64,000 nt of DNA, from the NCBI RefSeq assembly GCF_014084105.1, contig NZ_CP048289.1, positions 567,922 to 631,921 of the forward strand, in the 5' to 3' direction. This document shows positions 3,712 through 22,786 of this stretch, in pieces; positions within the stretch are counted from its first letter, which is position 1, and each line of letters opens with the position of its first letter. Origin of the DNA: Streptacidiphilus sp. P02-A3a. GTDB taxonomy: Bacteria; Actinomycetota; Actinomycetes; Streptomycetales; Streptomycetaceae. A program made the position numbers and the translations under genes. The notes under the pieces are model-generated. The model saw nothing but the letters and a program-made list of their open reading frames with translations, made no database searches and was not told the origin of the DNA.

Positions 3712-3789
3712 ATGACCCATCCCCGCAGCACCACCACCGGCTCCACCTCTACGGCCCCCGCCCGCACGCCCCTGCGGCCGGACCTGTGA
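3712..3789 (+). CDS. possible 25-residue leader peptide
   Basis: An ATG with a strong CAGGAG upstream opens a Thr/Ser/Pro-rich frame of 25 codons. Its TGA overlaps the GTG (3786) of the downstream Nudix gene. The codons end mostly in G or C. It could be a coupling leader or simply an upstream start region. No function is claimed. Confidence 0.35.
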   Translation: MTHPRSTTTGSTSTAPARTPLRPDL

Positions 3790-5252
3790 CCCCCGAACCG
3801 CCCCCCCGGAACCTGGAGCACGCCATGGACCCGACCGTCGCCGACAGCCAACCAGACGACACCTCCGCTGCGGCCCGAGAGCTCGACGCGGCCCTGCGGA
3901 CGACCGGCAGTAACAGCTACCTCCACATGAGGGACACGATGTCGGCCGTCGCGATCCTCGTCTACGGGGACGAGCGCACGCGCGAGTCGTACGTGGGGCC
4001 GTGGACGGTGCCGCTGACCGTGGCCCCCGACGAGGCCAAGGCCCTCGAACGCGCCCTCGCCTCGTTCGGAGTCAACGCCGAGGTGACGATCGCGGGGGTC
4101 GAGAACCTTTCACAAGGCACCGTCAGGGCGTTCCGCATCGGCTTCGCCGCGGCGGCCGACGTGCGGCGCTTCGCCCGGCGGCTCGTCGAGAACCTGCCCG
4201 AGCCCGCGGCGACAGCCCGCCGCCTGCACCGGGCGCTGGCAAAGGCCGGCATCAACCAGTGGGTCGGCTGGTCGAACGGCGCGGTGGTGCTGGACACCGT
4301 CGCGGCTGTGGACGCAGCCGCGCTGTGCGGCATCCTCGGCGAACGCGTGGGCGAGTCCATCGAGCAGGACCTGGACACCGCGGACGGGCCCTGGGTGGAG
4401 CAGCTCGCCGCCGAGATCGACGCCGTACTGTCCGCAATCCTCGGCGAACGGATCGGGGTCGACCCGGTCCCCGTCTGTCGCACATGCGCGATCTCGCGCG
4501 ACAACTGGGTGGACTTCGGCAGTATCTCGCTGGCCGTGGCGCAGCGTCTCGTCCTGGCGCTCGAAGCGGCCACCCCGCCGAGTACCGACCCCTCGGTCCC
4601 GACTGGGCCGCCCGCACCGGTGGACGACTCCCCAAAGGAGCAGCCCGTGTCCCCGAACGAACCGCGCCCGTACACCGACCCCCTGTCCCCGGAGGTCTAC
4701 GCCGCCGGCCGCGCAGCGTTGTGGGTGTCCGCCGCCGTGCTGTTCACCCACCAGGACGGCCGGGTCCTGCTCCTGGAGCCGACTTACCGGCCGACGCTGG
4801 TCCTGGTGGGCGGCGGGGTGGAGCGCGGCGAGTACCCGAGCCACGCCGCGGCGCGTGAGACCGCCGAGGAGACCGGCCTGCAGCGCGCCTTCGACACCGT
4901 CCTCGTGGTCGACACCGTCCTGCACAGCACCGCCGAGGCCGACCCCCGCTGGAACTTCCCCGGCGCGATCCACTACGTCTTCGACGGCGGCACCCTCACC
5001 GACGACGAGATCACCGGCATGCGCATGAGCGCCGAGTCCCACCGAACCCGTCTCCTGCTACCCGGCGCACTGCCGGACTACATGACCGCCGGGGAAGCAC
5101 GCCGGACCCAGGCCGCCCTCCAGGCCCGCGCCTCCGGGACGACCGTGATCCTCAACAACGGCCACCCCCTCACCGGGCACCCGCCGCGCGAATCGGCGGC
5201 GACGCCCGCGACTGACCCCACCACGCTACCGACCCCCCGGAGCCAGAAGTGA
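3786..5252 (+). CDS. two-domain protein: unknown N-terminal domain plus Nudix hydrolase
   Basis: A 488-residue frame; ATG 3825 is an alternative start. Residues from about 30 to 265 form an unrecognised alpha/beta region, and residues 265-290 are a Pro-rich linker. A Nudix domain follows with a complete Nudix box (G-x5-E-x7-RETAEETGL) near residues 343-365. Nudix enzymes cleave nucleoside diphosphates linked to another group, using metal bound by the box glutamates. A GTG at 4647 with AAAGGAG seven bases upstream lies in the linker and would yield the Nudix domain alone (201 residues). The stop overlaps the GTG of the VanX-like gene. Confidence 0.8.
   Translation: MTPEPPPRNLEHAMDPTVADSQPDDTSAAARELDAALRTTGSNSYLHMRDTMSAVAILVYGDERTRESYVGPWTVPLTVAPDEAKALERALASFGVNAEVTIAGVENLSQGTVRAFRIGFAAAADVRRFARRLVENLPEPAATARRLHRALAKAGINQWVGWSNGAVVLDTVAAVDAAALCGILGERVGESIEQDLDTADGPWVEQLAAEIDAVLSAILGERIGVDPVPVCRTCAISRDNWVDFGSISLAVAQRLVLALEAATPPSTDPSVPTGPPAPVDDSPKEQPVSPNEPRPYTDPLSPEVYAAGRAALWVSAAVLFTHQDGRVLLLEPTYRPTLVLVGGGVERGEYPSHAAARETAEETGLQRAFDTVLVVDTVLHSTAEADPRWNFPGAIHYVFDGGTLTDDEITGMRMSAESHRTRLLLPGALPDYMTAGEARRTQAALQARASGTTVILNNGHPLTGHPPRESAATPATDPTTLPTPRSQK
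4634..4640 (+). promoter_or_regulatory. internal Shine-Dalgarno before in-frame GTG 4647
   Basis: AAAGGAG sits inside the Nudix fusion gene, correctly spaced from the in-frame GTG at 4647 and exactly at the linker between the two domains. It could allow separate translation of the Nudix domain. Confidence 0.4.
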
Positions 5253-6386: not shown

Positions 6387-6560
6387 ATGAAGGGCGAGGC
6401 GCGCGAGAAATTCGAGGCGGAAATTTGCTCGGCCTACAAGCAGAACCTGAAGGTCGGCGTCCGCGACATCAGTGACGCCACCAACCGCTCGTACGGAGCG
6501 ATCTACGACGCGCTGAAGCGCAATGGCGTACTACGTCCTCGCGGCGGAACTCGCCGTTGA
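6387..6560 (+). CDS. small helix-turn-helix protein
   Basis: A 57-residue protein containing VGVRDISDATNRSYGAIYDAL followed by KRNGVLRPRGGTRR. This matches the short actinomycete HTH family with the pattern 'SIRxLAxxTGRSYGxxHxxL...LRxRGG'. Family members usually start with Met before KPGTK; here those residues are encoded just upstream, but the codon where Met is expected is ATA (6369). I therefore start at ATG 6387. It precedes the 7-deazaguanine genes and could regulate them, which is inference. Confidence 0.65.
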   Translation: MKGEAREKFEAEICSAYKQNLKVGVRDISDATNRSYGAIYDALKRNGVLRPRGGTRR

Positions 6561-6680
6561 CAACCAAGACCCAGCGTCACTGCGGCTTCCCCACCCGGCC
6601 CCTGCTCCATGCAGGCCCTCGCGCTGGGACCGGTTCATGGCCGCTGCGCATCGCCGTTCACCCAACCTCAAGGAGGATCA

Positions 6681-7091
6681 ATGGACTTCAGTGAAATACA
6701 GCTCCCGTCCGGCACGCACGCCATCGCCAAGGTGTTCGACTTCGAAGCAGGGCACCGGTTGACCGGTCTGCCGCCCCAGCACAAGTGCTCGCAGCAGCAC
6801 GGCCACAGCTACCAGGTCGAGCTTCAACTCACCGCGCCCTTCCTTGACGGTCCGGGTTTCGTCACTGATTTCGGGGCCCTGACGCCGTTCAAGAGGTTCC
6901 TGGACGAGCAGTTCGACCACCGCAATTTGCACGAGATCCTGCCGTTCGAGCCGACGTCGGAGCTGTTGGCCCAGTTCCTGGCTGGCTGGTTCATCCGCTA
7001 CGTCCAGCCGGACATCCCCGGTCGGCTGTTGGCTGTTCGCGTCCGGGAGACCCAGCGCAGCTGGGCCCGGTTTGATGTGGCGCAGCGGTGA
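6681..7091 (+). CDS. queD: 6-carboxy-5,6,7,8-tetrahydropterin synthase (QueD/PTPS family)
   Basis: 136 residues, starting at ATG 6681 with a near-perfect AAGGAGG upstream. The zinc ligands H25, H40 and H42 (FEAGHRL and HGHSY) and the catalytic C36 are all present, as is the DFGALTPF region. QueD converts dihydroneopterin triphosphate to 6-carboxytetrahydropterin, the second step towards 7-deazaguanines. Its stop overlaps the GTG of queE, showing a translationally coupled pathway operon. Confidence 0.9.
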   Translation: MDFSEIQLPSGTHAIAKVFDFEAGHRLTGLPPQHKCSQQHGHSYQVELQLTAPFLDGPGFVTDFGALTPFKRFLDEQFDHRNLHEILPFEPTSELLAQFLAGWFIRYVQPDIPGRLLAVRVRETQRSWARFDVAQR

Positions 7092-7834
7092 GCGGCGCGG
7101 GCGGCGTGCCTGCGCCGCGCACGGGGACCGGCGGCGAGTTCCGGCTGATCGTTGCTGAGTGCTTCGGCCTGGAAAAGCCGACGTTCCAGGGCGAGGGCCC
7201 GAGCTGCGGCATTCCGGCGCTCTTCATCCGCCTGTCCCGGTGCAACCTGACCTGCGGATGGTGCGACACCAAATACACCTGGGACTGGGCGCATTTCAAC
7301 CCCGTTGAGGAGTCGCAGAGGCGCACGGCGGCGGAGGTGCTTGCCTGGGCGCTCTCTTCCCCGGTCGAACTGGTGGTCATCACCGGCGGTGAGCCCCTGA
7401 TCCAGCAGAGGCCACTGATCCCCCTGGTGCAGGGACTGCTCGCAGCCGGAAAGCGGGTGGAGTTCGAGACGAACGGCACCCTGGTCCCGGATTCGGACCT
7501 GCTAGTCGACGGGGTGCGGTTCAACGTCAGCCCGAAGCTCGCCAACTCAGGCGTCGCCGAGGACAGGCGGATCGTCGAGACGGCCCTGACCACCTTCGCC
7601 CGGTCCGGCCGTGCGGTCTTCAAGTTCGTCACGCGCAATGCGGACGAGCTGGACGAGATCCATGAACTCGTCAGCGCCTTCGGCATGCACCCGGTGTACG
7701 TGATGCCGGAAGGCACCACGGCCGAGGGCCTCATCGAGTCCACGCGGGCGCTCGCGGACGCTGTTGCGGCCCGCCGATGGCGGCTCACTACCCGGCTGCA
7801 CGTCCTGGCGTTCGCCGACGCCCGTGGCCGCTGA
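7088..7834 (+). CDS. queE: 7-carboxy-7-deazaguanine synthase (radical SAM, QueE)
   Basis: 248 residues. The radical-SAM cluster Cys residues are C52, C56 and C59 in CNLTCGWC, the CxxxCxxC spacing used by many QueE proteins. A VITGGEPL motif contacts SAM, and FQGEGP near residue 34 is the typical QueE entry motif. QueE contracts 6-carboxytetrahydropterin to 7-carboxy-7-deazaguanine (CDG). The GTG start overlaps the queD stop. Confidence 0.9.
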   Translation: MSGAGGVPAPRTGTGGEFRLIVAECFGLEKPTFQGEGPSCGIPALFIRLSRCNLTCGWCDTKYTWDWAHFNPVEESQRRTAAEVLAWALSSPVELVVITGGEPLIQQRPLIPLVQGLLAAGKRVEFETNGTLVPDSDLLVDGVRFNVSPKLANSGVAEDRRIVETALTTFARSGRAVFKFVTRNADELDEIHELVSAFGMHPVYVMPEGTTAEGLIESTRALADAVAARRWRLTTRLHVLAFADARGR

Positions 7835-7886
7835 CCCGTTCCTCCCGACCCGTTTCTCCCCAGCCCTTGGAAGCGAGGCGATTTCC

Positions 7887-8528
7887 GTGACGTCCGTCTA
7901 CCGTCAGGCAGTCGGTGAGAGTCCGGCCCAGCCGAAGCAGACCAGCTGTGCCGCGCCCGGTCCGGTCGATACCGACCGCGTTACTGACCTGATAGGCCAG
8001 CTCCTGGCCGCACTCGGCGAAGACCCCGAGAGGTCGGGCCTGGTGGGCACCCCGGCCCGGGTCGCGGCCTGGTACCGCGACTTCCTGTCCCCGGACCCGT
8101 CGGCCACCGCGACGTGCTTTGCCGAGGACGCGCTGAGTGGCCAGCTGGTTGTGGTCGGCGGCATGAGCGTGTGGTCGCTGTGCGAGCACCACCTGCTGCC
8201 CATGAACCTGCAGGTCGCTGTCGGATACGTGCCCGTCGGCGAGGTCGTGGGCCTGTCAAAGTTCGGCCGGATCGCGCAGCGGCACGCCGGCCGCCTACAG
8301 GTCCAGGAGCGCTTCACCCGGCAGGTTGCCGAGGAGATCACTGGCCTGGTCGGCAGCAAGGACGTGGCCGTAGCCGTGCGTGGGACGCACCTGTGCATGA
8401 GCATGCGGGGTGTGCGCATGGAGCAGGCCCGTACCAACTCGGTGCAGGCCGGCGGCCGGTTCGAGAGCGACCCCGTGATCGCCCAGCAGTTCCTCACCCT
8501 CACCACCGCCCAGTGGAGGGTCGCTTGA
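7887..8528 (+). CDS. folE: GTP cyclohydrolase I (FolE)
   Basis: 213 residues from GTG 7887, which has GCGAGG upstream; the in-frame region before it overlaps queE and reads poorly. The zinc and active-site residues are C99, H101 and H102 (SLCEHHLLP), then H168 and C170 (THLCMSMRG). The VGYVPVGEVVGLSKFGRI block is typical of the family. The enzyme forms dihydroneopterin triphosphate from GTP, so it supplies QueD. Clustering with queD and queE points to 7-deazaguanine rather than folate synthesis. Confidence 0.9.
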   Translation: MTSVYRQAVGESPAQPKQTSCAAPGPVDTDRVTDLIGQLLAALGEDPERSGLVGTPARVAAWYRDFLSPDPSATATCFAEDALSGQLVVVGGMSVWSLCEHHLLPMNLQVAVGYVPVGEVVGLSKFGRIAQRHAGRLQVQERFTRQVAEEITGLVGSKDVAVAVRGTHLCMSMRGVRMEQARTNSVQAGGRFESDPVIAQQFLTLTTAQWRVA

Positions 8529-9346
8529 TGGCCACGGGCATTGACGTCTCTGTGATCGCCCCGGCCGCCTACCTGGACGCCTTCGTCGCACACGATCCCG
8601 CCGGCGTCCACCATGTAGCCGCCCAAAGGGTCCTGGCCGATCCCGCCTACCGGGCTTTCTTCCGCCGCGAGGCCGAGCGCGGCGCCGAGATCATCGTCGA
8701 CAACGGCGTCTTCGATCTCGGACACGCCCTGTCGGCCGCCGACCTGATCGCGGCGGCCCTGGCGGTCGACGCCCGCGAGATCATCCTCCCGGACGTCATG
8801 CGTGACGGGCCCGCCACCATGAAGGCCAGCGACGTGGCCGCCCGCGAGATCCTCGACCTGAGCGACGGCTTCCGCCTGTGTGCCGTGGTGCATGCAGCAG
8901 ACGATGACGAGTGGCTCCGCTGCTACGACCACTTCGCCTCCAGCGACTTTGTCGGCGCCATCGCCCTGCCCGCCTCCCGACGCCCCGCCCCGCAGGAACA
9001 GCTGTGCCGCACCCGCTGGACGGCCACCCGCCACCTGGAAGACCACGGCATGGTCAACGACCGGATCGTGTACCGGCTGCTGGGGCTGGGCCGGACCGGG
9101 CATTTGGAGCTGGTCGAGCAGCGCGAGCACGACTGGATCGCCTCCGTGGACGGCGCGGCCCCAGTCATCCTCGGTGCCATGGGCATCGAGATGCTGCCCG
9201 GCGGCCCGTACGACAAGCCCAGAACCCCTCGTGTGGAGGAACTCGGCACCATCCCGGAGAGCAGATTCGACCTGATCCGGCGCAACATCGCAGTCGTGCG
9301 GGACGCAGCCGGCACCGGAGCGCCGATGCCGGAGGCCCGCCCATGA
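8528..9346 (+). CDS. TGT/DpdA-like TIM-barrel protein (putative base-exchange transglycosylase)
   Basis: 272 residues; the ATG overlaps the folE stop. In order, the sequence shows IIVDNGVFDLG, EIILPDVMRDG, a helix starting DDDEWLRCYDHFAS, FVGAIALPASR, IVYRLLGLG and IASVDGAAPVILGAMG. These match strand-by-strand the landmarks of phage-type tRNA-guanine transglycosylase relatives (DNG.., LPDV.., GIP.., HLLG.., S.D.S.P). The Asp in SVDGAAP is the plausible nucleophile. Such enzymes swap guanine for a 7-deazaguanine in tRNA or, for DpdA, in DNA. The position next to folE, queD and queE supports this. The family call is made by eye and is moderate. Confidence 0.5.
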   Translation: MATGIDVSVIAPAAYLDAFVAHDPAGVHHVAAQRVLADPAYRAFFRREAERGAEIIVDNGVFDLGHALSAADLIAAALAVDAREIILPDVMRDGPATMKASDVAAREILDLSDGFRLCAVVHAADDDEWLRCYDHFASSDFVGAIALPASRRPAPQEQLCRTRWTATRHLEDHGMVNDRIVYRLLGLGRTGHLELVEQREHDWIASVDGAAPVILGAMGIEMLPGGPYDKPRTPRVEELGTIPESRFDLIRRNIAVVRDAAGTGAPMPEARP

Positions 9347-10404
9347 GCCCGCGAGCCGAACCGCCGCTCACAGCGGGAGCGGTCATGCGGGCGAAGCCGA
9401 TCGCGGTCAACGGTCACACGATGGGCGCGGACAGCCTGCTGCGCTACCTGGAGATCAAGGTCCATCACCTCATCCGCGAGCAGCCCTGGGACAGCATCCG
9501 TGTGGTCGGCGCCCACGACCGCCAGGCCGTCGTCTCCCGGCACGAGAAGACCGGCAAGCTGTTCAACGTGCAGCGTCCGACCGCCTCGATCCACGGCCGG
9601 GACCTGACGTTGATGGCGTTCCCCGGCACCGACTACGTCCACCACTACGCGCTGATCATCGCCACCTACCTGGCGATGACCGGCCGCAGTGCCGACACGG
9701 TCACCTACCAGCTGCCCGACCCGGCCCAGTGCTGCACCGCGATTCAGCAGCTCGACCTGGACCTCGACGGCGACCTGGTGATCGTGGGCTGGGGGCTGTC
9801 ACAGCTCGCCCCGTGCGACGGTGCGTGGAACCAGGCGCGGGGCTACGCCTGGAAGCGCGCCCGCGTCCACGGCCGCGCAGTGCTCTACCTCGGCTTCCTG
9901 CACAGCATCTGGGGCGATGTCGCCGGCCGGGTGGTCCGGCGACTGGCTGAACTCGGCGCCCGAGACGTCGTCTACGTGGGAAAGGTCGGCTCCCTGACCC
10001 CCGAGGTTGAGCCGAACACGATGCTCGCCACCGGCAGCGAAAGCCTCCTCGACGGCTCGCTCGTGCAGTGGGACGACTTCTTTGGCGACCTCGCCGCCGC
10101 GCGGCCGGGGGTACGTTCCGGGGTCCACGTCACCTCGCCCTCGATCCTGCTGGAAGACCGGGACTGGCTGACCAAGCACGCCGATTACGCCTTCGTCGAT
10201 CCGGAGATCGGCCCGATGGGCGCTGCCGCGAACCGGGCGGGGATCAGGTTCGGCTACCTCCACGTGATTTCCAACAATCTCGCCCGCTGCTACCCCGCGG
10301 ACCTGTCGAATGAGCGCCACCGCGACGTGGTCCGGCGACGCGCCGTCCTGGTCGGCCGGATCCGCGACACGATCGCAGACCGCCTGGCCACCCGCACGAC
10401 CTGA
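9343..10404 (+). CDS. nucleoside phosphorylase-like protein (PNP/UDP superfamily)
   Basis: 353 residues; the ATG overlaps the previous stop. The second half has DVVYVGKVGSLTPEVEPNTM, which resembles the phosphate-binding G-x-x-G strand of purine and uridine phosphorylases, and VDPEIGPMGAAANRAGIRFGYLHVISNN, which resembles their nucleoside-binding Asp/Glu and late strand. The N-terminal 120 residues are additional. Members remove or exchange bases on (deoxy)ribose. Placed after the TGT-like gene, it could release or attach a deazapurine base; that is inference. Confidence 0.5.
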   Translation: MSPRAEPPLTAGAVMRAKPIAVNGHTMGADSLLRYLEIKVHHLIREQPWDSIRVVGAHDRQAVVSRHEKTGKLFNVQRPTASIHGRDLTLMAFPGTDYVHHYALIIATYLAMTGRSADTVTYQLPDPAQCCTAIQQLDLDLDGDLVIVGWGLSQLAPCDGAWNQARGYAWKRARVHGRAVLYLGFLHSIWGDVAGRVVRRLAELGARDVVYVGKVGSLTPEVEPNTMLATGSESLLDGSLVQWDDFFGDLAAARPGVRSGVHVTSPSILLEDRDWLTKHADYAFVDPEIGPMGAAANRAGIRFGYLHVISNNLARCYPADLSNERHRDVVRRRAVLVGRIRDTIADRLATRTT

Positions 10405-10425
10405 CACCCATGGAGGAAAACGATT

Positions 10426-11124
10426 ATGACGCTCGGGATACCGCCCGCCACGCCTGCGCGTGGACGGGAGATCACGGTCACCGGCATCGACGGAGCCGGC
10501 AAGTCCACCCTGTCCGCCCGACTGCACCGGGCCCTGAACGCCGCTGGCCACACCGCGATCCTGGTCGGCAAGAACAGCACCGAGGTCCCCACAGACCCGC
10601 AGCTGTCCGCCTACGTTGACCAGCTCAACGAACTCGTTTACCGCCGAGACCCCCGTGTTGCCCAGGCATGCGGCGACCAGTACTGGCTGCTGGCCCTCGC
10701 CGCCTGGTACACCCTCCAGGACCGGCTCGTGATCCAGCCCGCGCTTGCCGCAGGCACCCATGTTGTCCTCGACAACGCCCACCACAAGATCCTCGCGCGC
10801 TACGCCGTCAATCCGGACGTCCCCCTCCGGCTCTCGGAACAGGTATTCGCCCACCTCACCCAGCCCGACCTGGTGATCTTCCTGCGGATCGGGGCCCGCG
10901 AAGCTCTCGCCCGCAGGAAGGGTGAGTTCACCTCCTTGGAGACGGGCCACTCCGGCAGCGGGGACGCGGACTTCATCCATTACCAGGACGCCGTCCTGGC
11001 CCAACTCCGCGACCAGGAGCAGCGCGGCGGCTGGCTCTCACTGGACGTTGCCGGCATGGACCGAGACGCGGTCTTCAAGACCGCCGCCGGGGCCATGGCC
11101 GACCGACTCCAGCTCACCATCTGA
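10426..11124 (+). CDS. thymidylate kinase-like P-loop kinase
   Basis: 232 residues, with GGAGG nine bases before ATG 10426. Walker A is GIDGAGKST (residues 20-28), typical of dTMP kinases. LVIFLRIGAREALARRK matches the strand and Arg-rich lid region, and a DNAHH segment stands where dTMP kinases have a D-R-Y-type sequence, so the substrate may differ. It may phosphorylate an unusual nucleoside monophosphate made by the neighbouring genes; that is inference. Confidence 0.7.
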   Translation: MTLGIPPATPARGREITVTGIDGAGKSTLSARLHRALNAAGHTAILVGKNSTEVPTDPQLSAYVDQLNELVYRRDPRVAQACGDQYWLLALAAWYTLQDRLVIQPALAAGTHVVLDNAHHKILARYAVNPDVPLRLSEQVFAHLTQPDLVIFLRIGAREALARRKGEFTSLETGHSGSGDADFIHYQDAVLAQLRDQEQRGGWLSLDVAGMDRDAVFKTAAGAMADRLQLTI

Positions 11125-11149
11125 AATCGACCCCAAGGAGGACCAAGCC

Positions 11150-12070
11150 GTGATCCGACCTGCCGACGGCGCGTACGTGTGCCACGGCGTCACCTGGGCG
11201 ACCGGAGACCCCCGACTGCTGCTCGCCCCACTGCCCGCCGGGCCGCTGGTCTACGCCCAGGTCATGAACCGGCGTCTCGGCTTCCGGACGGGTACCGGCC
11301 GGTGGTGCACCGGCCGGTACGGGTTCACCGGCACGGTCCGCGTTGAGGCCCTCGCCTGCCCCGACCGGGCCCGGGTGGAGCACGGCGGCCAGTGCGACCG
11401 GTGCGCAGGCCAGGACGAGTTCCGCCTCGCCCACCAGTTCCACCAGGGCGGAGCGAGCACTCCCGAGGCCCTCGGCCGCTACATGGCGCAGCCACACTGG
11501 CTGTACCTGGCTACCTTCGCCGACAGCACCACCAAGGTCGGCACCGCAGCTGAGCCCAGGCGCCGTTCCCGCCTCGACGAGCAGGGCGCACTATTCGCCA
11601 CCTACCTGGCCAAGAGCCCCGACGGTCGAGCAGTGCGCTACCTCGAAGACGCCCTCGGCCAGCGCCTGGAGCTGCCCCAGAGCGTCAGGGCGGCGGCCAA
11701 GCTCCAGGCCCTGGCCCGCCTGCGCGACCTCTCCTCGGCCCGCACCGCCCACGAGCAGCACGTCGTCCGCGCAGCCGCGGTGCTCGCCGATCTGGAGACA
11801 CCCGTCGTGCTGGAGGCATGGACCCCACCGGAGGTAGGGGACCGGCTTCGCACCGGCAGCGCGGAACGGGTTCTGTACCCGCACGATCTGCGAGAGGGGG
11901 AGCACGGCTTCACCGTCCGGTCCTGCATCGGCTCCCAGGGCCTCGTCGTCCTGGGGGAGGACAACGACGAACCTGGGTACCTGCTCGACCTCGGCGCGCT
12001 CAAGGGCCGCCACATCACCCTCGGCACCTTCGCCTCCCCCGACACCGCCGTTCAGACCTCCCTGTTCTGA
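11150..12070 (+). CDS. DUF2797 protein with GIY-YIG-like core
   Basis: 306 residues from GTG 11150 with AAGGAGG upstream. Residues 40-90 hold Cys pairs (GRWCTGRYG, ACPD, CDRCAGQ) that could bind zinc. The core LYLATFADSTTKVGTAAEPRR followed by RLDEQGA is diagnostic of DUF2797 and resembles the GIY-YIG nuclease strand pair with its Arg. The biochemical role of DUF2797 is unknown. In this operon it could cut or bind nucleic acid carrying a modified base, but nothing proves it. Confidence 0.7.
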   Translation: MIRPADGAYVCHGVTWATGDPRLLLAPLPAGPLVYAQVMNRRLGFRTGTGRWCTGRYGFTGTVRVEALACPDRARVEHGGQCDRCAGQDEFRLAHQFHQGGASTPEALGRYMAQPHWLYLATFADSTTKVGTAAEPRRRSRLDEQGALFATYLAKSPDGRAVRYLEDALGQRLELPQSVRAAAKLQALARLRDLSSARTAHEQHVVRAAAVLADLETPVVLEAWTPPEVGDRLRTGSAERVLYPHDLREGEHGFTVRSCIGSQGLVVLGEDNDEPGYLLDLGALKGRHITLGTFASPDTAVQTSLF

Positions 12071-12140
12071 CGCACCGACTCTCCCCAGGCCCCTGGTCCG
12101 GGCTGCGAACCGGCCCCTCACCGCGAAGCGAGGCACCACG

Positions 12141-12983
12141 ATGGCCCCCCTGGACGCCGTCCTCGGCTGGGACGAGGACTCCAACGCCGAGGCGTACAGC
12201 GCCTTCACCCGCGACTTCCCTATGTACAGCGCCACCAGCCGCGACCTCGCCCACCGAGCCCGGCTCGCCGACAGCCGGTTGGTGGTCGACCTGTGCGGGG
12301 GTGCCGGAGCCACCGCCGAGGCGATCCTCGCGCTCGCACCGGCCACGGCCCGGGTCCTGTCCCTGGACGCGGCAGCGGCCATGCAGCGTGTGGGCCGCCG
12401 CACCGTGAGCGACCCGCGCCTGACCTGGGTCACGGCACCGGCCGAGGACCTGGCTGCCCACATCGACATGGGTAGCGCGGACGCCGTGGTGTGCAATTCG
12501 GCGATCTGGAAGACCGACGTGCCGCGGGTGTTCGCCGCCGTGCGGCGGGTACTGCGCCCAGGCGGACGGCTCGTGTTCAACATCGGCGGCGGATTCGCCG
12601 GCGTACGACACCCCGAGGAGGAGGCCGCACGCGGAACGCTCTCGCTGAACAGCCTGATCCATCAGATCGCCACCCGTGACCACGGCTACGCCCCGCCCGT
12701 GGCCGAACCGGTGCCTCCCAAACTGTCGCTGGCCGCGCTCACTGCCCACCTGGCCGTCGCGGGGATGAACGTCCTCGACACCGAAGTCGTCGCCCAGCAC
12801 GGCACGATGGCGGAGAAGAGGGCGTGGCTGTCGATCCCTTTGTTCGCGCGACCCGAAGGCGACTTCACCCATGCCCAGCGGATGAGGATCCTCGCCGACG
12901 CGTACGCCCTGACCACACCCCAGACCCCCACCGTGACGAGCTGGCTCGTGGTGACGGCCCAACGGCCCGGGGAGGAACGATGA
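12141..12983 (+). CDS. class I SAM-dependent methyltransferase
   Basis: 280 residues. The SAM-binding loop is VVDLCGGAGATAEAI. An acidic strand end follows at VLSLDAAAAM, then APAEDL, ADAVVCNSAIWK, and VLRPGGRLVFNIGGGF as the post-motif III region. This is a small-molecule-type methyltransferase layout; no DNA methylase N/D-PP-Y/F motif is visible. The stop overlaps the ATG of the Nudix gene. The target could be a 7-deazaguanine product, which is inference from position. Confidence 0.75.
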   Translation: MAPLDAVLGWDEDSNAEAYSAFTRDFPMYSATSRDLAHRARLADSRLVVDLCGGAGATAEAILALAPATARVLSLDAAAAMQRVGRRTVSDPRLTWVTAPAEDLAAHIDMGSADAVVCNSAIWKTDVPRVFAAVRRVLRPGGRLVFNIGGGFAGVRHPEEEAARGTLSLNSLIHQIATRDHGYAPPVAEPVPPKLSLAALTAHLAVAGMNVLDTEVVAQHGTMAEKRAWLSIPLFARPEGDFTHAQRMRILADAYALTTPQTPTVTSWLVVTAQRPGEER

Positions 12984-13531
12984 CCTCCCCGGGCCCCGCC
13001 GCGAACACCGTCGGCAACACGCCCTGCTGCGACCACACCAGTGTCGGAGTCCTCATCTCCTCACCGGCTGGCCTTCTGGTCTTCGAACGGGCGACGCCCC
13101 CGGCCGGGATCGCGCCCGTAGCCGGCCACATCGACCAGCACGGAAGCCCCGAGCAGGCCGCCCGTGCGGAGGCCGCCGAGGAAGTCGGCCTGACCCTCAC
13201 GCACCTCCACCTGCTGCTGGAGGAGAGGCGGTCCAACAGATGCAGGCGACCGCCCTCCGGCCCGGTGGGCCACCGCTGGTGGGTCTACCAGGCCCAGGCA
13301 TCGGGGACGATAAGGCCCGCTGTCCGCGAAGTCCGCAGCCCCCGATGGATCCACCCCGAGCAGCTCCAAGAGCACGCAGACCGCACGGTGGCCTACGCCG
13401 AAGGACAGTTGAGCGACGCGGAGTTCACCGCACGGCCCGGACTAGCACCGGTCTGGCTCCGCTTCCTGAGTCAGCTGCACCTAGTGACCCTGCCCGGGAC
13501 CACCCTGGACCTGATCGACAAGGTCATCTGA
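12980..13531 (+). CDS. Nudix hydrolase with a variant Nudix box
   Basis: 183 residues, coupled to the methyltransferase by an ATGA overlap and preceded by GGAGGAACG. The box reads G-HIDQHG-SPEQAARAEAAEEVGL. The EE-x-GL end is intact, but the first Glu and the Arg of the G-x5-E-x7-RE pattern are changed (G and A). Some streptomycete Nudix proteins share this form. It probably sanitises or trims a nucleotide in the same pathway. It converges on the next Nudix gene. Confidence 0.75.
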   Translation: MTSPGPAANTVGNTPCCDHTSVGVLISSPAGLLVFERATPPAGIAPVAGHIDQHGSPEQAARAEAAEEVGLTLTHLHLLLEERRSNRCRRPPSGPVGHRWWVYQAQASGTIRPAVREVRSPRWIHPEQLQEHADRTVAYAEGQLSDAEFTARPGLAPVWLRFLSQLHLVTLPGTTLDLIDKVI

Positions 13532-13551
13532 TGACACGGCGTACACCGGGC

Positions 13552-14070
13552 TCAGCGAGCGCCGACCGCTTCTCCAGCGGCCAGGCGATTTACGTAGGCG
13601 CGGATGCGGTCGCGGTCGTCAGGGAAGGCGCTCTCCCAGACTTGGCCCAGTTCGATCCACGCCGGAGGCTGGCCGGACTCCCCGCCGAGTGGGACGTCCC
13701 GGCCGATGACGGCGGCGTAGGACAGGCCCAGAGTGGGGGCCCAGTCGGCCCGGTAGGAGCGCACGGCCACGGCCGCCGGCACCGGCAGCAGGTCGCTGTG
13801 CAGGCCGGTCTCCTCCGCGAGTTCTCGAACAGCGGCAGCCCGCGGGGTCTCGCCCGGCTCCACCTTGCCGCCCGGCGGCACCCACCCCCGCACCCGGTGC
13901 TTCACGAGCAGGACATGGGTGAAGAACGGATCGGTGACCCATACCTCGGCCGCCAGCGGCTCCATCGGCTTGCGCCGCGCCCGCTCCAGCCATGCCCGCG
14001 CGTCGTCGAACTCCAACGCAGCCATCTCGGTGTCGGCGACCGCCGCTTCCAAAACCATCGGGTCAATCAC
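13552..14070 (-). CDS. Nudix hydrolase
   Basis: About 170 residues. The complete Nudix box is G-KVEPGETPRAAAVRELAEETGL, preceded by a WVPPGG strand, so metal binding should be intact. The start is uncertain: GTG 14079, GTG 14070 and ATG 14058 are all in frame, and 14070 gives IDPMVLEA at the N-terminus. Longer in-frame extension towards 14277 overlaps the CYTH-like gene start region and reads poorly. It is the only minus-strand gene between the deazaguanine cluster and the CYTH-like gene. Confidence 0.75.
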   Translation of the reverse strand: MIDPMVLEAAVADTEMAALEFDDARAWLERARRKPMEPLAAEVWVTDPFFTHVLLVKHRVRGWVPPGGKVEPGETPRAAAVRELAEETGLHSDLLPVPAAVAVRSYRADWAPTLGLSYAAVIGRDVPLGGESGQPPAWIELGQVWESAFPDDRDRIRAYVNRLAAGEAVGAR

Positions 14071-14263
14071 CTGGCACACCCTATGCCGCCGCCCCAGTGG
14101 TTCGGCGGAGGCAGCCCGCGCGTCCCACCCGGCAGCGCCGATGGCGACCGCTGCGGCAGGCAGGCCCCGACCGGCAACGGCCTCGGGGCACGACGGCACA
14201 GCGCCGAGAACTCCACAACCGAGGACACCGACGCCGTGTCCCAACTCAGAAGGGAAGCCCGCC

Positions 14264-15472
14264 ATGCGCGGTGACACCGTACCCGGTGCCTGGATCGTCC
14301 TGGGCGGAGTCCATCACCTCAATCAGACGGCGCCCCGCCGCGACGACGACGCCGTCGTGTTGGTCCGGGTCCTCCCACAAGAGGTCTGCGTGCCGAGCAC
14401 CACCGTGATCGTCCGGTGGGACACCCTCGGGATCTGCCCAGTCAGTGCCCTCACCTCAACCGGACGTCCGCTGGGGACCGACCTGGTCGACGGCAGCGCC
14501 CTCTACCCGGACGCCATCGCAGGCTCCGCTCTGCGTGCCCTGGTCGGCGAAGCCGCCGCCCCCGGCCTCGTGCCCCTGTGCTACCTGTCCGAACACCCCG
14601 GCGGCGGATATCACGCATATGCCCAGATCCGATTCCATCATGAGGACGCCTGCTTCGTCCGCACCACCCGCGAACCCGTGGGTGCAGGGCCGGTCGAATC
14701 GCTGCGGTGGCTGAAGCCCACGCTCGACGAACACGCGAATTTGGAGCCTCGACTCAACAACCACCAGCGCTATTACCGCACCCACTTCGCCGGCACCGAA
14801 CTGGAGTACAAGTACAACCTGGAACAGCACCCGAATATTTGGGCTAGCTCCATGGAACTACTGAAAGCGCTCCGCCACGGCGAGCTGCCCGACTGCCTGC
14901 CCGAGTACCGGCAGGAGTTCGAGATCAACGCCTTCGACAACCACATGTACGAGGTCCTCGGCCCTGAGCAGGAGCGCGGCTATGCCTCGTTCATCCCTAT
15001 GGTCGACGGCCGCCACCTCTTGAAGCGCAAGTGGTTCACAGAGGACGCCTTCGCCCGCCGCGAAGAACTGTTCAGCGACATCGAGGTAGCACCCCACGAA
15101 TTCGCGCAGTTCCTGCGCTCCGAACACAACTTACGCGTGCAGGCACTGCCGGCCTTCCGACGCGTACGCTATGACATCCAGTGCGAGTCCATGCGCACCG
15201 GCCACGTCTATGGCATCTTCTTCGACCGCTGCTCGCTCCTGGCAGCACCGGAAATTCTGCTGTCACAGTGCGAAATCGAGTACCGACGGTCGCGCAGCGT
15301 CCTGGATCAAGATAAGGAGGAGTTGCTGACGGAGATGGATCGAATCGACCACTGGCTCTCGCGCTACCTGGCCGGGCGCAGCCTCGCCAAGCAGCGAACG
15401 CTCCACTCCAAACTTTCCTTCCTGCGCGAGGTCGTCGCCGCCAGACCTGATCTTGTTCCTGATGAGGAGTGA
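14264..15472 (+). CDS. large protein with CYTH-like signature
   Basis: 402 residues from ATG 14264, with AGAAGGGA upstream. Residues 179-183 are ELEYK, the E-x-E-x-K signature of CYTH/triphosphate tunnel enzymes. Further acidic and basic strands follow, such as EFEINAFDN, RHLLKRKWF, VRYDIQCESM and CEIEYRRSRS. The N-terminal 170 residues are of unknown type. CYTH enzymes act on triphosphates (thiamine-TP, polyphosphate, cAMP formation). An in-frame TTA leucine codon at 15131-15133 suggests dependence on the bldA tRNA. The family call is moderate. Confidence 0.5.
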   Translation: MRGDTVPGAWIVLGGVHHLNQTAPRRDDDAVVLVRVLPQEVCVPSTTVIVRWDTLGICPVSALTSTGRPLGTDLVDGSALYPDAIAGSALRALVGEAAAPGLVPLCYLSEHPGGGYHAYAQIRFHHEDACFVRTTREPVGAGPVESLRWLKPTLDEHANLEPRLNNHQRYYRTHFAGTELEYKYNLEQHPNIWASSMELLKALRHGELPDCLPEYRQEFEINAFDNHMYEVLGPEQERGYASFIPMVDGRHLLKRKWFTEDAFARREELFSDIEVAPHEFAQFLRSEHNLRVQALPAFRRVRYDIQCESMRTGHVYGIFFDRCSLLAAPEILLSQCEIEYRRSRSVLDQDKEELLTEMDRIDHWLSRYLAGRSLAKQRTLHSKLSFLREVVAARPDLVPDEE

Positions 15473-19336: not shown

Positions 19337-20356
19337 ATGGCGCGGATCCGCACCATCAAGCCGGAGGCGTTCATCTCCGAATCGCTCGCCGAGGTGAGCA
19401 TCGCGGCCGAGCGGACCTTCTTCGGCCTCCTCACCCAGTCCGACGACCACGGCCGCCACCGCGACAACGCCGCGATCATCGCCGGGCTGCTCTGGCCCCT
19501 GCGCGCCGAGCACACCTCGGTCCACGTCGAGGACGACCTCCAGCAGCTCGCCGACGCTGGTCTCATCTGCCGGTACACCGGCTGCGACGGCCGTCGCTAC
19601 CTGCACATCGTGACCTGGTCCGAGCACCAGAAGATCGACAAGCCGAGCCAGTCCCGCTTGCCTGCCTGCACCCGGCACCGCGCGCCCGAGCGGTGCGCCC
19701 CCTGCAAGGGCACCTGCACTCAGCCCGGCGAGGAGTCGCCCACCCCTATCCGAGGGCTCGTCGAGGCTTCGCCGAACACTCCCCTAGCTCTCGATCGGTC
19801 CGCTCCGCCCGCCGCGACGCCTCGCGACCCCCGAGGCGAGGCTCTGACCGTCCAGCAGGACGCCCTCGTGAGCATCGTTGGCACCCCTGACCGGCCCGGC
19901 AGGAAAACCGCAGGTCAAACGGCATTCGCCGAGGCTTACCCGAAGCCTCCCCGAAGCCTCCCCGAGGGCTCGGCGCCTGGATCTAGGATCTTGGATCCTG
20001 GATCTTCTTTCCCTACGGGGCGCACGGCGCCCCCATCCACCGTCACAGCGAACCAACTCGTCGGCGAGTACGTCGCCGCCTGCGAGGAGCGCCCGCCCAG
20101 CGACGTGATCGGTCACCTGGGGCGGATCACCAAGAAGCTCCTGGGCGAGGGCATCACCCCGGAGCACATCCGGGCCGGGCTGGCGAACTTCGCCGGGAAC
20201 CCCAAGCACCCGAGCGTGCTGACCAGCATGGTCAACGAGGCCATGAACGCACGATCGGCCGGTTTGGCGCGGCCGGGAATCCGCCCTAACGTGCCTCCTC
20301 ACCAGGCGTGGACCAACCCGGTCGACGCAGTCTCCGCCTACGCCGAGGAGCTGTGA
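19337..20356 (+). CDS. phage-like replisome organiser / replication initiator
   Basis: 339 residues. The N-terminal 110 (MARIRTIKPEAF, then SLAEVSIAAERTFFGLLTQ, DDHGRHRDN, LWPLRAEH) match the actinophage winged-helix replisome-organiser family. A Pro/Ser-rich linker (about 130-240) is followed by a C-terminal helical domain (NQLVGEYVAACEERPPSD...). The DnaC-like gene starts inside its stop codon. This gene order copies phage lambda O and P, where O binds iterons located inside its own gene; repeat clusters lie in the linker here too. It probably initiates replication of the excised element. Confidence 0.7.
   Translation: MARIRTIKPEAFISESLAEVSIAAERTFFGLLTQSDDHGRHRDNAAIIAGLLWPLRAEHTSVHVEDDLQQLADAGLICRYTGCDGRRYLHIVTWSEHQKIDKPSQSRLPACTRHRAPERCAPCKGTCTQPGEESPTPIRGLVEASPNTPLALDRSAPPAATPRDPRGEALTVQQDALVSIVGTPDRPGRKTAGQTAFAEAYPKPPRSLPEGSAPGSRILDPGSSFPTGRTAPPSTVTANQLVGEYVAACEERPPSDVIGHLGRITKKLLGEGITPEHIRAGLANFAGNPKHPSVLTSMVNEAMNARSAGLARPGIRPNVPPHQAWTNPVDAVSAYAEEL
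19740..20015 (+). other. candidate replication origin inside the initiator gene
   Basis: The linker-coding DNA holds CGAGGGCTCG twice (19751, 19963), CGAGGCTTCG at 19762, GAGGCTT at 19931 and CGAAGCCTCC twice in tandem (19941, 19952). Four units of GGATCNN with a 7-bp period and lower GC follow at 19979-20006. Repeats plus an easily melted stretch resemble iterons and an unwinding element. Confidence 0.4.
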
Positions 20357-21063
20357 TGCGCACCCGTACCCGCGAACCGCAGACCCTCGGCAGCGAGGGC
20401 ACCCTGGACCGGATGGCCCGCATCCTGGCCGCCCGCAACATCGACCCGGCGACTGTCGCAGCGCTGGCCGAGGAGCACGAGCCCTTCTCGCTGCTGGACC
20501 TCCTGTCCGCCGGGATGCCCCCGCGCTACCAGGGCGCGGTCGCCGACCACCCGACGGTCCTGGCCTGGGCCCGGGACGTCGCCGAGGCAGCGGTCGCCCC
20601 CAGCGTGGGAGCCCGGCGACAGGTCACCACCGGGCCGAGCCTGCTGATGGCCGGGGTCGTCGGCGCGGGCAAGACGTACCAGGCGTACGGCGCGGTCCGG
20701 CACCTGGTGCAGAGCGGGCTCGGGGTGCGCTGGCGCGCGACCACGGCCGCCGACCTGTACGCCGAGCTGCGCCCGCGCCCCGGCACGGACAGCGAGCGGG
20801 AGCTGGCAGCCGTGGCCCGGTGCCCGCTGCTGATCCTGGACGACCTGGGCGCGGCCAAGGCCAGCGACTGGACCGAGGAGATCACCTACCGGCTGATCAA
20901 CCGCCGGTACACCCACATGCTCCCCACGCTGATCACCACCAACCTGCGCATCAGCGACCTACGCGCCTACCTCGGCGACCGCGTCGCCTCCCGCCTGGTG
21001 GAGATGACCACCCGGGTCGAGTTCGAGCCGGTCGACCGCAGACGCCACCGCACCGCTGCCTGA
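20356..21063 (+). CDS. DnaC/IstB-like AAA+ ATPase (helicase loader)
   Basis: 235 residues, starting in the stop of the organiser gene. Walker A is MAGVVGAGKTYQAY and Walker B is LLILDDLGA. A sensor-like LITTNL and the box VASRLVEMT, carrying the arginine finger, follow as in DnaC-type loaders. Such proteins load the replicative helicase onto melted origin DNA. It acts with the preceding initiator. Confidence 0.8.
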   Translation: MRTRTREPQTLGSEGTLDRMARILAARNIDPATVAALAEEHEPFSLLDLLSAGMPPRYQGAVADHPTVLAWARDVAEAAVAPSVGARRQVTTGPSLLMAGVVGAGKTYQAYGAVRHLVQSGLGVRWRATTAADLYAELRPRPGTDSERELAAVARCPLLILDDLGAAKASDWTEEITYRLINRRYTHMLPTLITTNLRISDLRAYLGDRVASRLVEMTTRVEFEPVDRRRHRTAA

Positions 21064-21180
21064 CCCACCGCAGGCCGCCATGCCGGGCCGCGCCCCCAGC
21101 GCGCCGCCCCACGCACTCCCGACCCAGCACACCTCCCCGCCGACGCCCCTGCGCGCGGAGAGCGATCGGAGCCACCTCGC

Positions 21181-21717
21181 ATGACCACCACGACGATCAG
21201 CCCTGCCCACCACCGGTCGCTCGGCGACCACACCTGGCAGGACGACGCCGTCTGCCACCCCACCGAGTACAACCCGGTGGACCCCGAAATCTTCTTCCCC
21301 GAGCCGGACGAGACCGACAAGATCACCGCCGCGAAGGCACTGTGCGCCCAGTGCCCGGTCCGCCAGAACTGCCTGGACTCCGCCCTCGAAGGCAGTGACA
21401 CCCACGGCATCCGGGGTGGGATGACCCAGGAGGAGCGCGAACCGCTGCACGAGAACCTCGCCAACCGTCTGGACTACAGCCGCGTCAGCGCCATCGTTGC
21501 CGGGCGCGACATTCACCTCACCAAGGCCGAGCGCCGCGCGGTCGTCCACGCCGCCTACCGCCACGGCGTCAGCGAGCAGCGCCTGGCCTGGCTCCTGAAG
21601 ATCACCGAGGAGCACGCCCAGAAGCTCTATCGCGAGACCCGCCGCGCCCTGCGCAACCGACACCTGGAACAGACCACGACGACCACACCACCCCCGAGAC
21701 CGACGGCGGACCCCTGA
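21181..21717 (+). CDS. WhiB-family iron-sulfur transcription factor
   Basis: 178 residues. The four cluster ligands are C25, C55, C58 and C64 (CAQCPVRQNC), followed by the GIRGGM turn typical of Wbl proteins. The C-terminal third is an unusual extension with a helix-turn-helix-like stretch (YRHGVSEQRLAWLLKITEEHAQKLY). Wbl proteins bind a 4Fe-4S cluster and act with sigma factors. Copies on actinomycete mobile elements and phages are common, and this one probably regulates the element's genes. Confidence 0.9.
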   Translation: MTTTTISPAHHRSLGDHTWQDDAVCHPTEYNPVDPEIFFPEPDETDKITAAKALCAQCPVRQNCLDSALEGSDTHGIRGGMTQEEREPLHENLANRLDYSRVSAIVAGRDIHLTKAERRAVVHAAYRHGVSEQRLAWLLKITEEHAQKLYRETRRALRNRHLEQTTTTTPPPRPTADP

Positions 21718-21742
21718 ACCGCGCCGACTTCGGGACGGCGGC

Positions 21743-22786
21743 ATGAGCACGCCCGAAGCAGCTCCCGTCACCGGCTGGGACCGCGCGGTCGTCATCGCCC
21801 TGGGCGGCGCAGGCTGCGCCCTGTCCTACGACGCCCTGCAGCAGATGGCCGTGGCCATCCACGTCCGGGGCTTCCTGACCTACCTCTTCCCGGTGGTGAT
21901 CGACGGCTTCATCGCCTACGGCATCCGGGCCCTGATGGTCTTGCGCGACGCGCCCCTGCGCGCCCGGCTCTACGTTTGGGCGCTCTTCGGCACGGCCACC
22001 GCCGCCAGCATCTGGGCTAACGCCCTGCACGCGGTCAGGCTCAACCAGGAGGCCGCCGCGACCGCTGGTCTCCGGCTGGGCAACACGGTGGTCGCGGTGC
22101 TGTCCACCATCGCTCCGCTCGCCCTGGCCGGAGCGGTCCACCTCTACATCCTCATCGCCCGCGGACCGGTCAAGGACAGTGACCGAGGCGACCTCGGCCA
22201 GGCCGGTCACCTCGGTCAGGCTGACCGACCCGAGAGCGTCGCGGTCACCCGCACTGACCGGTCCGGTCAGCAGCAGCCCCCGGCCGGTCAGGTCAGCCCC
22301 GGTCACCCGGCCACCGCCCTGACCGACCTGCCCCGACCGTCCGTGGACAGGCAGACCTCCACGCCTCGGTCACTGACCGGGGACAGCGACCCGACCAGTA
22401 CCAGTGGCCCGGGCACCGGTCACCACGAGCTGCCGCGACAGGCCGCTGACCTGCCCGGACAGCCGGACACCGCACGGCCGGTCACTGACCACCCGGTCGG
22501 CATCGACCCGGTCACCGACCACCAGGACAGCCCCCGGCCGATCACTCCGCAGCCGGTCAGCGGCCCCGGCACGCCGGTCACCGGTGACCGGCGGGCTGAC
22601 CCGGACACCGACGAGCTGCTGGAAATCGCCCGGTCAGCGGTCAGGGCCGAGGACAAGCTCACCCGCAAGGTGGTCGCCCAGGCGATCCGAGGTCAGCAGA
22701 TCCCGCTGTCCAGCGACACGCTGACCGCCCTGATGGTCCAGCTCCGCGAGCAGCACGGACAGCCGGTCACCACCGCCCGGAACTGA
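21743..22786 (+). CDS. DUF2637 membrane protein with repeat-encoded C-terminal tail
   Basis: 347 residues. Residues 12-150 carry four hydrophobic helices with WANALHAVRLNQ, the DUF2637 pattern found on actinomycete plasmids and integrative elements. Residues 155-290 are a low-complexity tail rich in P, T, D, G and V, built by repeated codons containing GGTCA or TGACC. A short ordered helical end follows (LEIARSAVRAEDKLTRKVVAQAI). The tail probably exists because the DNA repeats are useful. The membrane topology and gene position suggest a transfer-associated role. Confidence 0.75.
   Translation: MSTPEAAPVTGWDRAVVIALGGAGCALSYDALQQMAVAIHVRGFLTYLFPVVIDGFIAYGIRALMVLRDAPLRARLYVWALFGTATAASIWANALHAVRLNQEAAATAGLRLGNTVVAVLSTIAPLALAGAVHLYILIARGPVKDSDRGDLGQAGHLGQADRPESVAVTRTDRSGQQQPPAGQVSPGHPATALTDLPRPSVDRQTSTPRSLTGDSDPTSTSGPGTGHHELPRQAADLPGQPDTARPVTDHPVGIDPVTDHQDSPRPITPQPVSGPGTPVTGDRRADPDTDELLEIARSAVRAEDKLTRKVVAQAIRGQQIPLSSDTLTALMVQLREQHGQPVTTARN

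Follow-up and report, generated by a model that had tools for sequence, protein, structure and literature searches.

Introduction

The described systems closest to the gene run reported here are the tubercidin, toyocamycin and sangivamycin clusters, the bacterial dpd island and the DpdA loci of phages. As far as the accessible portion of PMC6112128 goes, the tubercidin (tub) cluster has FolE, QueD and QueE, with no QueC listed, and a Nudix step, together with a phosphoribosyl pyrophosphate (PRPP) transferase (TubE), a GMP reductase (TubD) and a UbiD protein (TubF); the toyocamycin/sangivamycin (toy) clusters also have FolE, QueD and QueE (PMC12648386, accessible portion), and the bacterial dpd island has a DpdA-type enzyme (PMC11888242, accessible portion). 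The run in question lies in a stretch of 64,000 nucleotides of Streptacidiphilus sp. P02-A3a (the window; C1:567922-631921 of the 9.33 Mb single-contig genome), where QueD, QueE and FolE are joined to a DpdA-like protein, a purine nucleoside phosphorylase (PNP)-like protein, a thymidylate-kinase (TMPK)-like kinase, a DUF2797 protein, a methyltransferase and two Nudix proteins (Table 1).

The run shares FolE, QueD and QueE with the tub and toy clusters and a DpdA-type enzyme with the dpd island. It differs from tub in having no Pfam match to a PRPP transferase, GMP reductase or UbiD protein, and from toy in lacking QueC/ToyM and any Pfam match fitting ToyE, ToyH or nitrile hydratase; identity with a toy/tub-type cluster was rejected on the missing PRPP transferase and GMP reductase matches. 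It differs from the dpd island in having no match to dpdB-type, DUF6884 (dpdC), dpdD-K-type or restriction genes, and identity with that island was rejected on the missing dpdB, dpdC and restriction matches; the dpdB-K searches found nothing with Pfam (11 genes) or with PADLOC (10 genes, the PADLOC-DB content of Dpd models being unchecked). The original prediction, made by a model from the nucleotide sequence, had recognised no known toyocamycin, queuosine or dpd gene set in this content, and none was matched here, nor was tubercidin. No description of the gene set was found in the open-licence literature, searched mainly by titles and abstract openings, and within that scope the run represents a form of 7-deazaguanine pathway not described before.

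Our preferred reading, held tentatively and with a little less than even confidence, is that the run encodes a self-contained pathway consuming 7-carboxy-7-deazaguanine (CDG), in which the DpdA-like enzyme would swap guanine for CDG on a nucleotide to give a nucleoside or nucleotide product. More broadly, the cluster seems to produce a modified guanine base and to join it to a sugar through an enzyme type otherwise met in phage DNA modification; because the neighbouring genes encode nucleotide-handling enzymes, its product is probably an altered nucleotide of a new type, unless it serves to mark DNA in a novel manner. In the proposed scheme, built on homology, GTP would be converted to CDG by FolE, QueD and QueE and, in the absence of QueC, no further; the DpdA-like enzyme would replace the base of a guanine (deoxy)nucleotide, and not one in tRNA, by CDG; and the PNP-like protein (glycosidic-bond handling), the TMPK-like kinase (phosphorylation), the Nudix proteins (phosphate removal) and the methyltransferase (methylation) would process the nucleotide, yielding a CDG-derived nucleoside or nucleotide with cadeguomycin-like chemistry or beyond. 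Counted for this reading were the co-occurrence of CDG and DpdA-like genes in 31 of 32 loci with no QueC found in the stretches searched, the predicted TGT fold, the lack of a tRNA-TGT in the genome, a PNP fold, nucleoside monophosphate (NMP) kinase homology, the lack of a dpdB-K match, an export-type plasmid layout, a kinase-PNP-DUF2797 module and kinase neighbours in some phages. If the reading is correct, 7-deazaguanine chemistry gains a branch joining phage-type base exchange to nucleotide enzymes, the run becomes a genome-mining target for new and possibly cadeguomycin-like deazapurine nucleosides, DUF2797 acquires a pathway context, and it can be tested directly whether some DpdA enzymes use free nucleotides.

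CDG supply genes and the absence of QueC from the stretches searched

Matches to PTPS, Radical_SAM and GTP_cyclohydroI, and to the PHROG QueE family, bore out the predicted presence of QueD, QueE and FolE, and from these sequence relationships we infer that the three enzymes produce CDG. A search for QueC, for which the copy from the host genome served as query, covered flanks of up to 10 kb per side for genome loci and 14 kb for plasmid loci. There was no match at E 0.01 in the window, as predicted, in the 32 genome loci (L001-L032) or in plasmid loci L035, L036 and L038, and none at E 0.1 in plasmid locus L037; the single weak match was in plasmid locus L039 (28% over 78 residues, E 0.005). 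As QueC was not found in the stretches searched, the run would end at CDG.

Elsewhere in the genome, at C1:5058809-5059408, a QueC scoring 131.5 bits, short of the curated threshold, belongs to a second 7-deazaguanine locus. This locus (C1:5054000-5063000; L072) has QueC, QueD, QueE and FolE beside frames whose translations read as aminotransferase, ATP-grasp, major facilitator superfamily (MFS), methyltransferase and Fe/2OG dioxygenase, and is possibly a separate deazapurine natural product pathway. The family of tRNA-guanine transglycosylase (TGT; PF01702) had no match in the host genome, with 14/14 control genomes positive, which makes queuosine formation by the usual route unlikely; use of the run for queuosine was rejected on this absence and on the lack of QueC in the run.

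Cadeguomycin is 7-carboxy-7-deazaguanosine, the simplest product expected from CDG and ribose. The accessible part of PMC12648386 counts it with the compounds for which no gene cluster has been identified, and that of PMC6112128 gives Streptomyces hygroscopicus as its source species. A strain of S. hygroscopicus carries the run (L019), a weak hint of a link between this run and cadeguomycin, though the compound is not known to come from the L019 strain.

The DpdA-like protein

The DpdA-like product matched no family in the Pfam scan. Its AlphaFold model (pLDDT 91.4) returned TGT in all 50 of the 50 PDB matches listed by Foldseek (best E 7.4e-8), so that a TGT-type fold is supported by the model and the TGT/DpdA-like barrel of the original prediction stands; the predicted fold did not fall outside TGT-like folds, the outcome that would have refuted that prediction. 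In a search of viral models, Cellulophaga phage phiST ranked first of the named phages (E 9.1e-15). All 26 aligned sequences, 10 of them actinobacterial and 16 viral, share residues D58, N59, D89 and D208. When the protein was compared by profile with ten TGT sequences (hhalign), one weak match was obtained (Prob 15.5, E 0.0017), in which D89 aligns on the aspartate of LDEC and D208 on that of MFDCVLP, which we take to be the catalytic residues of TGT, and no partner was assigned to D58; eight other pairings gave Prob 0.1-0.7 and E 0.08-0.6, and a sequence-profile search with the DpdA-like protein found no TGT in the PDB. Base exchange on nucleic acid would be a putative activity of the protein.

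Used as a tblastn query, the window protein found no phage at E 1e-3, and a viral-contig relative matched 33 phage records. The DpdA1-type comparison was made against two sequences alone, those of phages 9g and CAjan. The window protein reached E 0.2 or worse against them by blastp, the best rows were 3.6e-4 (L048 with CAjan), 0.002 (L025 with 9g) and 0.003 (L036 with CAjan), and the profile gave 0.003 and 0.11; on these values the similarity is at most remote. The DpdA tree groups 11 actinobacterial rows in a single clade (100/100), with the row from a Streptomyces chartreusis plasmid (L037) outside it and long branches for many phage rows. Actinobacterial and phage DpdA could not be told apart by protein charge.

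CxCxxC is the zinc site motif of TGT, and none was seen on reading the DpdA-like alignments. This missing site and the phage-type sequence argue against the insertion of CDG into tRNA or other RNA, which would agree with the TGT fold and with the lack of any other TGT in the genome, and which we consider very improbable.

Conservation and distribution of the run

Loci with the DpdA-like protein were collected through six short peptide patterns, which return close relatives only. The gene run recurs in the resulting 32 loci of named actinobacteria, scattered over soil actinobacteria, the placed loci belonging to Streptomycetaceae, Streptosporangiaceae, Pseudonocardiaceae and Frankiaceae. The DpdA-like and PNP-like genes are present in 32/32 loci, QueD, QueE and FolE in 31 each, and the kinase, DUF2797 and methyltransferase genes in 30 each, followed by the minus-strand Nudix gene (29), the other Nudix gene (24) and the gene for a 402-aa protein (16); L032 consists of fragments of the DpdA and PNP-like genes only, and in L008 the PNP-like gene is a fragment and the later genes are all missing. 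The DpdA, PNP, kinase, DUF2797 and methyltransferase genes keep one order and strand in 30/30 loci having all five, and the order QueD-QueE-FolE is found in 26/31 loci, with one alternative order in 3 loci and another in 2. Such recurrence with kept order is more than chance would give.

The run is patchy, being present in 3/100 genomes with the window's own counted, in 0/13 other genomes of the genus and, at class level, in 4/394 genomes (the window's own counted, at most 6 candidates scored per genome). Four Streptomyces plasmids also carry it, among them the unannotated L039. Among the matches listed for 25 loci, flanking genes were common only within subgroups.

QueD and QueE of Pseudonocardiaceae have diverged far more than the DpdA of the same loci, and have perhaps been replaced; the trees are no proof of this, and the L039 rows are doubtful. 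In L011 (5459-7822) a 787-aa frame carries the QueD domain after a long N-terminal part of unrecognised family, and in L001 a separate 549-aa gene stands at the place of this N-terminal part.

Phage relatives and the DNA alternative

Outside the run, the closest relatives of the DpdA-like protein are phage DpdA, often adjoining FolE, QueE and QueC, and one of them is annotated 'DNA guanine transglycosylase'. The DpdA of phiST, immuto and CP220 belong to the same protein family as that of the run; both phiST and immuto have CDG genes adjoining it, and a kinase-like neighbour is shared by all three phages and the run. The phage loci differ from the run in that QueC occurs in 13 of 19 viral loci and in that the PNP-like, kinase and DUF2797 queries had no match in any of the 19. 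QueE is present in 13/19, FolE in 12/19 and QueD in 9/19; some of these loci are short or near-copies, the QueC-bearing L059-L061 being near-copies.

In phiST, the DpdA relative stands beside QueD, QueE, FolE, a MazG-type gene and a P-loop gene, with no QueC in 12.7 kb. A 'thymidylate kinase' follows the DpdA relative of Campylobacter phage CP220, with no CDG genes within 5 kb flanks, and Flavobacterium phage immuto has an NTP pyrophosphohydrolase upstream and a 'thymidylate kinase' slightly downstream. A small P-loop kinase-like gene lies near the DpdA relative in 9/24 phage loci, CP220 among them, by unblinded reading (neighbours of 22 loci listed), and L056 is a tenth by motif. Of these 24 loci, 17 come from viral contigs and 7 from phage records, with L060 and L061 excluded as near-copies of L059.

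A wider proposal is that the actinobacterial DpdA clade and its phage kin are free-nucleotide guanine transglycosylases, which would exchange the guanine of (d)GMP for CDG, or for a relative of it, with a partner NMP kinase leading to the modified (d)NTP. The outcome in actinobacteria would be a CDG nucleotide, and in phages such as CP220 the exchange would be a pre-replication event explaining very high guanine replacement. We regard it as rather unlikely. For Campylobacter phages, Hutinet et al. 2019 (PMC6884629, accessible part) note the proposal that a modified dGTP is synthesised.

Families neighbouring phage DpdA were compared by Pfam in a near set (80 of 92 open reading frames (ORFs), 12 removed by hand, several of them on the minus strand) and a far set (80 of 140 ORFs drawn from 185). 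AAA_18 was found in 5 near ORFs and in none of the far ones listed (the best 25 of 38 families); MazG stood at 4 against 2, DUF3310 at 3 against 1 and AAA_28 at 3 against 1. Far ORFs were capped at 300 aa, and 23 of the 80 near ORFs are longer, so that long families such as DNA polymerase are not comparable between the sets. The uracil-DNA-glycosylase family was seen in 12/80 ORFs neighbouring DpdA relatives (viral L043-L059, phage L078-L084).

Several observations weigh against the preferred CDG nucleotide pathway. A link between kinases and phage DpdA, tested by motif and distance, was not significant (8/133 near against 5/167 far ORFs, p=0.16). DNA_pol_A was found in 18/80 near ORFs, the far set with its length cap being no control for it, and DNA polymerase adjacency is present in 9g and CAjan too. 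No transporter conserved with the full run was seen among the flanking genes listed, few of which were scanned. Lastly, described DpdA enzymes act on DNA (PMC6884629, accessible part), and for this reason modification of DNA is the main rival. By that account the DpdA-like enzyme would insert CDG into the DNA of chromosome or plasmid, with methylation perhaps following, the nucleotide enzymes would tune pools, and DUF2797 would be a partner or nuclease. The phage DpdA kinship, often beside FolE and QueE, argues for it, as does the patchy occurrence, plasmids included, which resembles that of mobile modification systems. Against it, the run gave no match indicative of dpdB-K, restriction or helicase genes, GIY-YIG was not confirmed for DUF2797, and both the PNP fold and the HIT and PPDK_N-type genes around the second module described below fit small-molecule chemistry. 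We consider DNA modification somewhat less probable than the nucleotide pathway.

Halves of the run occurring alone

Relatives of the kinase, PNP-like and DUF2797 proteins (32, 33 and 36% identity) occur together in a genome of another genus (G265; L070 6400-12250), in a row of PPDK_N-type gene, unnamed gene, kinase, PNP-like, DUF2797 and HIT, with an APH gene also present; CDG and DpdA genes had no match in 19.9 kb around this module. In the family of G265, 13/250 genomes had a PNP-like match. Five of these, from a single genus, are close to G265, and the three that were read (L070, L116 and L117) agree, the APH gene having been sought in L070 only. The remaining eight all carry the core of the full run, at least some of their stretches coinciding with the 32-locus set (such as L111 with L006, L109 with L010, L112 with L012) and therefore not being independent. 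From its place beside HIT and PPDK_N-type genes without CDG genes, the kinase, PNP and DUF2797 trio is, as judged by homology, a nucleotide-handling module also found apart from CDG synthesis.

The other half stands alone on the S. chartreusis plasmid (L037 12045-18148), where QueD, QueE, FolE, a DpdA relative (27%) and a Nudix gene are followed by an MFS gene on the opposite strand and a LacI gene. By analogy with the Nudix and MFS genes of tubercidin the layout appears to be of export type, with an exported CDG nucleoside as candidate product. A tblastn lead naming this Nudix protein an ortholog of the window's minus-strand Nudix protein was rejected, as blastp similarity covered only 27 residues, the Nudix box.

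These separate halves (L037 against L070, L116 and L117) would also be expected of two independent cassettes travelling together, one for a CDG nucleoside and the other, kinase-PNP-DUF2797, with an unrelated or protective role such as salvage or self-resistance; the single order and strand kept by the five genes across four families argues against this, and we hold it to be improbable.

The PNP-like, DUF2797 and 402-aa proteins

The nucleoside-phosphorylase-like call of the original prediction was supported at the level of predicted fold: the AlphaFold model of the PNP-like protein (pLDDT 85.4) gave, among the PDB matches listed, MTAP, PNP, MTAN, futalosine hydrolase and uridine phosphorylase (best E 5.9e-11), and a PNP fold is supported by this model. 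PNP_UDP_1 in Pfam matched at 1.7e-5 and 24.8 bits, marginally below the 25.1 cut-off. The PDB alignments mostly span about 220-285 columns, against 353 residues in the model, which leaves the protein with an additional part. A 25% relative of the PNP-like protein is found on Klebsiella conjugative plasmids (L076 11986-15496, L077 10010-13496), accompanied by DMT transporter, Nudix and DegT aminotransferase genes.

The dTMP-kinase-like, methyltransferase and Nudix calls agreed with Pfam (Table 1). For the DUF2797 protein, predicted to be GIY-YIG-like, the family itself was recovered, and comparison of shallow profiles gave no match to GIY-YIG; in the accessible part of PMC12804078, DUF2797 is associated with rhomboid and peptidase domains in a generated sequence. 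The gene that had been called CYTH-like encodes the 402-aa protein, for which equally shallow profiles gave no CYTH match; an ExExK pattern, which we take to be the CYTH motif, is invariant in 8 rows.

Gene content of the run and its surroundings

All genes named in the original prediction are present in a run from 6681 to 15472, on the plus strand save one Nudix gene. The run had been placed from 6387; the start of QueD is instead the ATG at 6681, with AGGAGG upstream, and not 6387 or 6609.

Table 1. Genes of the run in the window, with supporting matches
Feature	Position	Strand	Evidence
QueD-like 6-carboxytetrahydropterin synthase	6681..7091	+	PTPS 9.4e-25; NCBIfam QueD equivalog 74.5 bits, under 89.25 cut-off
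QueE-like CDG synthase (radical SAM)	7088..7834	+	Radical_SAM 1e-9; PHROG QueE 5.4e-54; NCBIfam QueE equivalog 1.1e-23, under cut-off
FolE (GTP cyclohydrolase I)	7887..8528	+	GTP_cyclohydroI 6.3e-48; uncertain start (frame open from 7764)
DpdA-like protein with predicted TGT fold, related to phage DpdA	8528..9346	+	Predicted model, Foldseek, viral relatives
PNP-superfamily protein with extra N-terminal part	9343..10404	+	Predicted model, PDB matches
Thymidylate-kinase-like NMP kinase	10426..11124	+	Thymidylate_kin 5.5e-10; PDB thymidylate kinase 4.4e-12 by profile
DUF2797 protein	11150..12070	+	DUF2797 3e-8; GTG start 11150 downstream of AAGGAGG
Class I SAM methyltransferase	12141..12983	+	Methyltransf_25 8.6e-13
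Nudix protein 1, accessory	12980..13531	+	NUDIX 3.1e-14
Nudix protein 2	13552..14277	-	NUDIX 8.9e-15
Conserved 402-aa protein, CYTH-like motif pattern only	14264..15472	+	ExExK pattern; shorter 14393-15469 reading without Pfam match

The window was negative for tRNA genes and for Rfam families at their gathering score. Adjoining the cluster, at window 19337-22783, are replication-initiation-like, DnaC-like and excisionase-like phage families, which suggests an integrated mobile element. On the other side, window 3786-5252 encodes a protein of 488 aa that ends in a Nudix domain; 3/32 loci have a relative of this protein.

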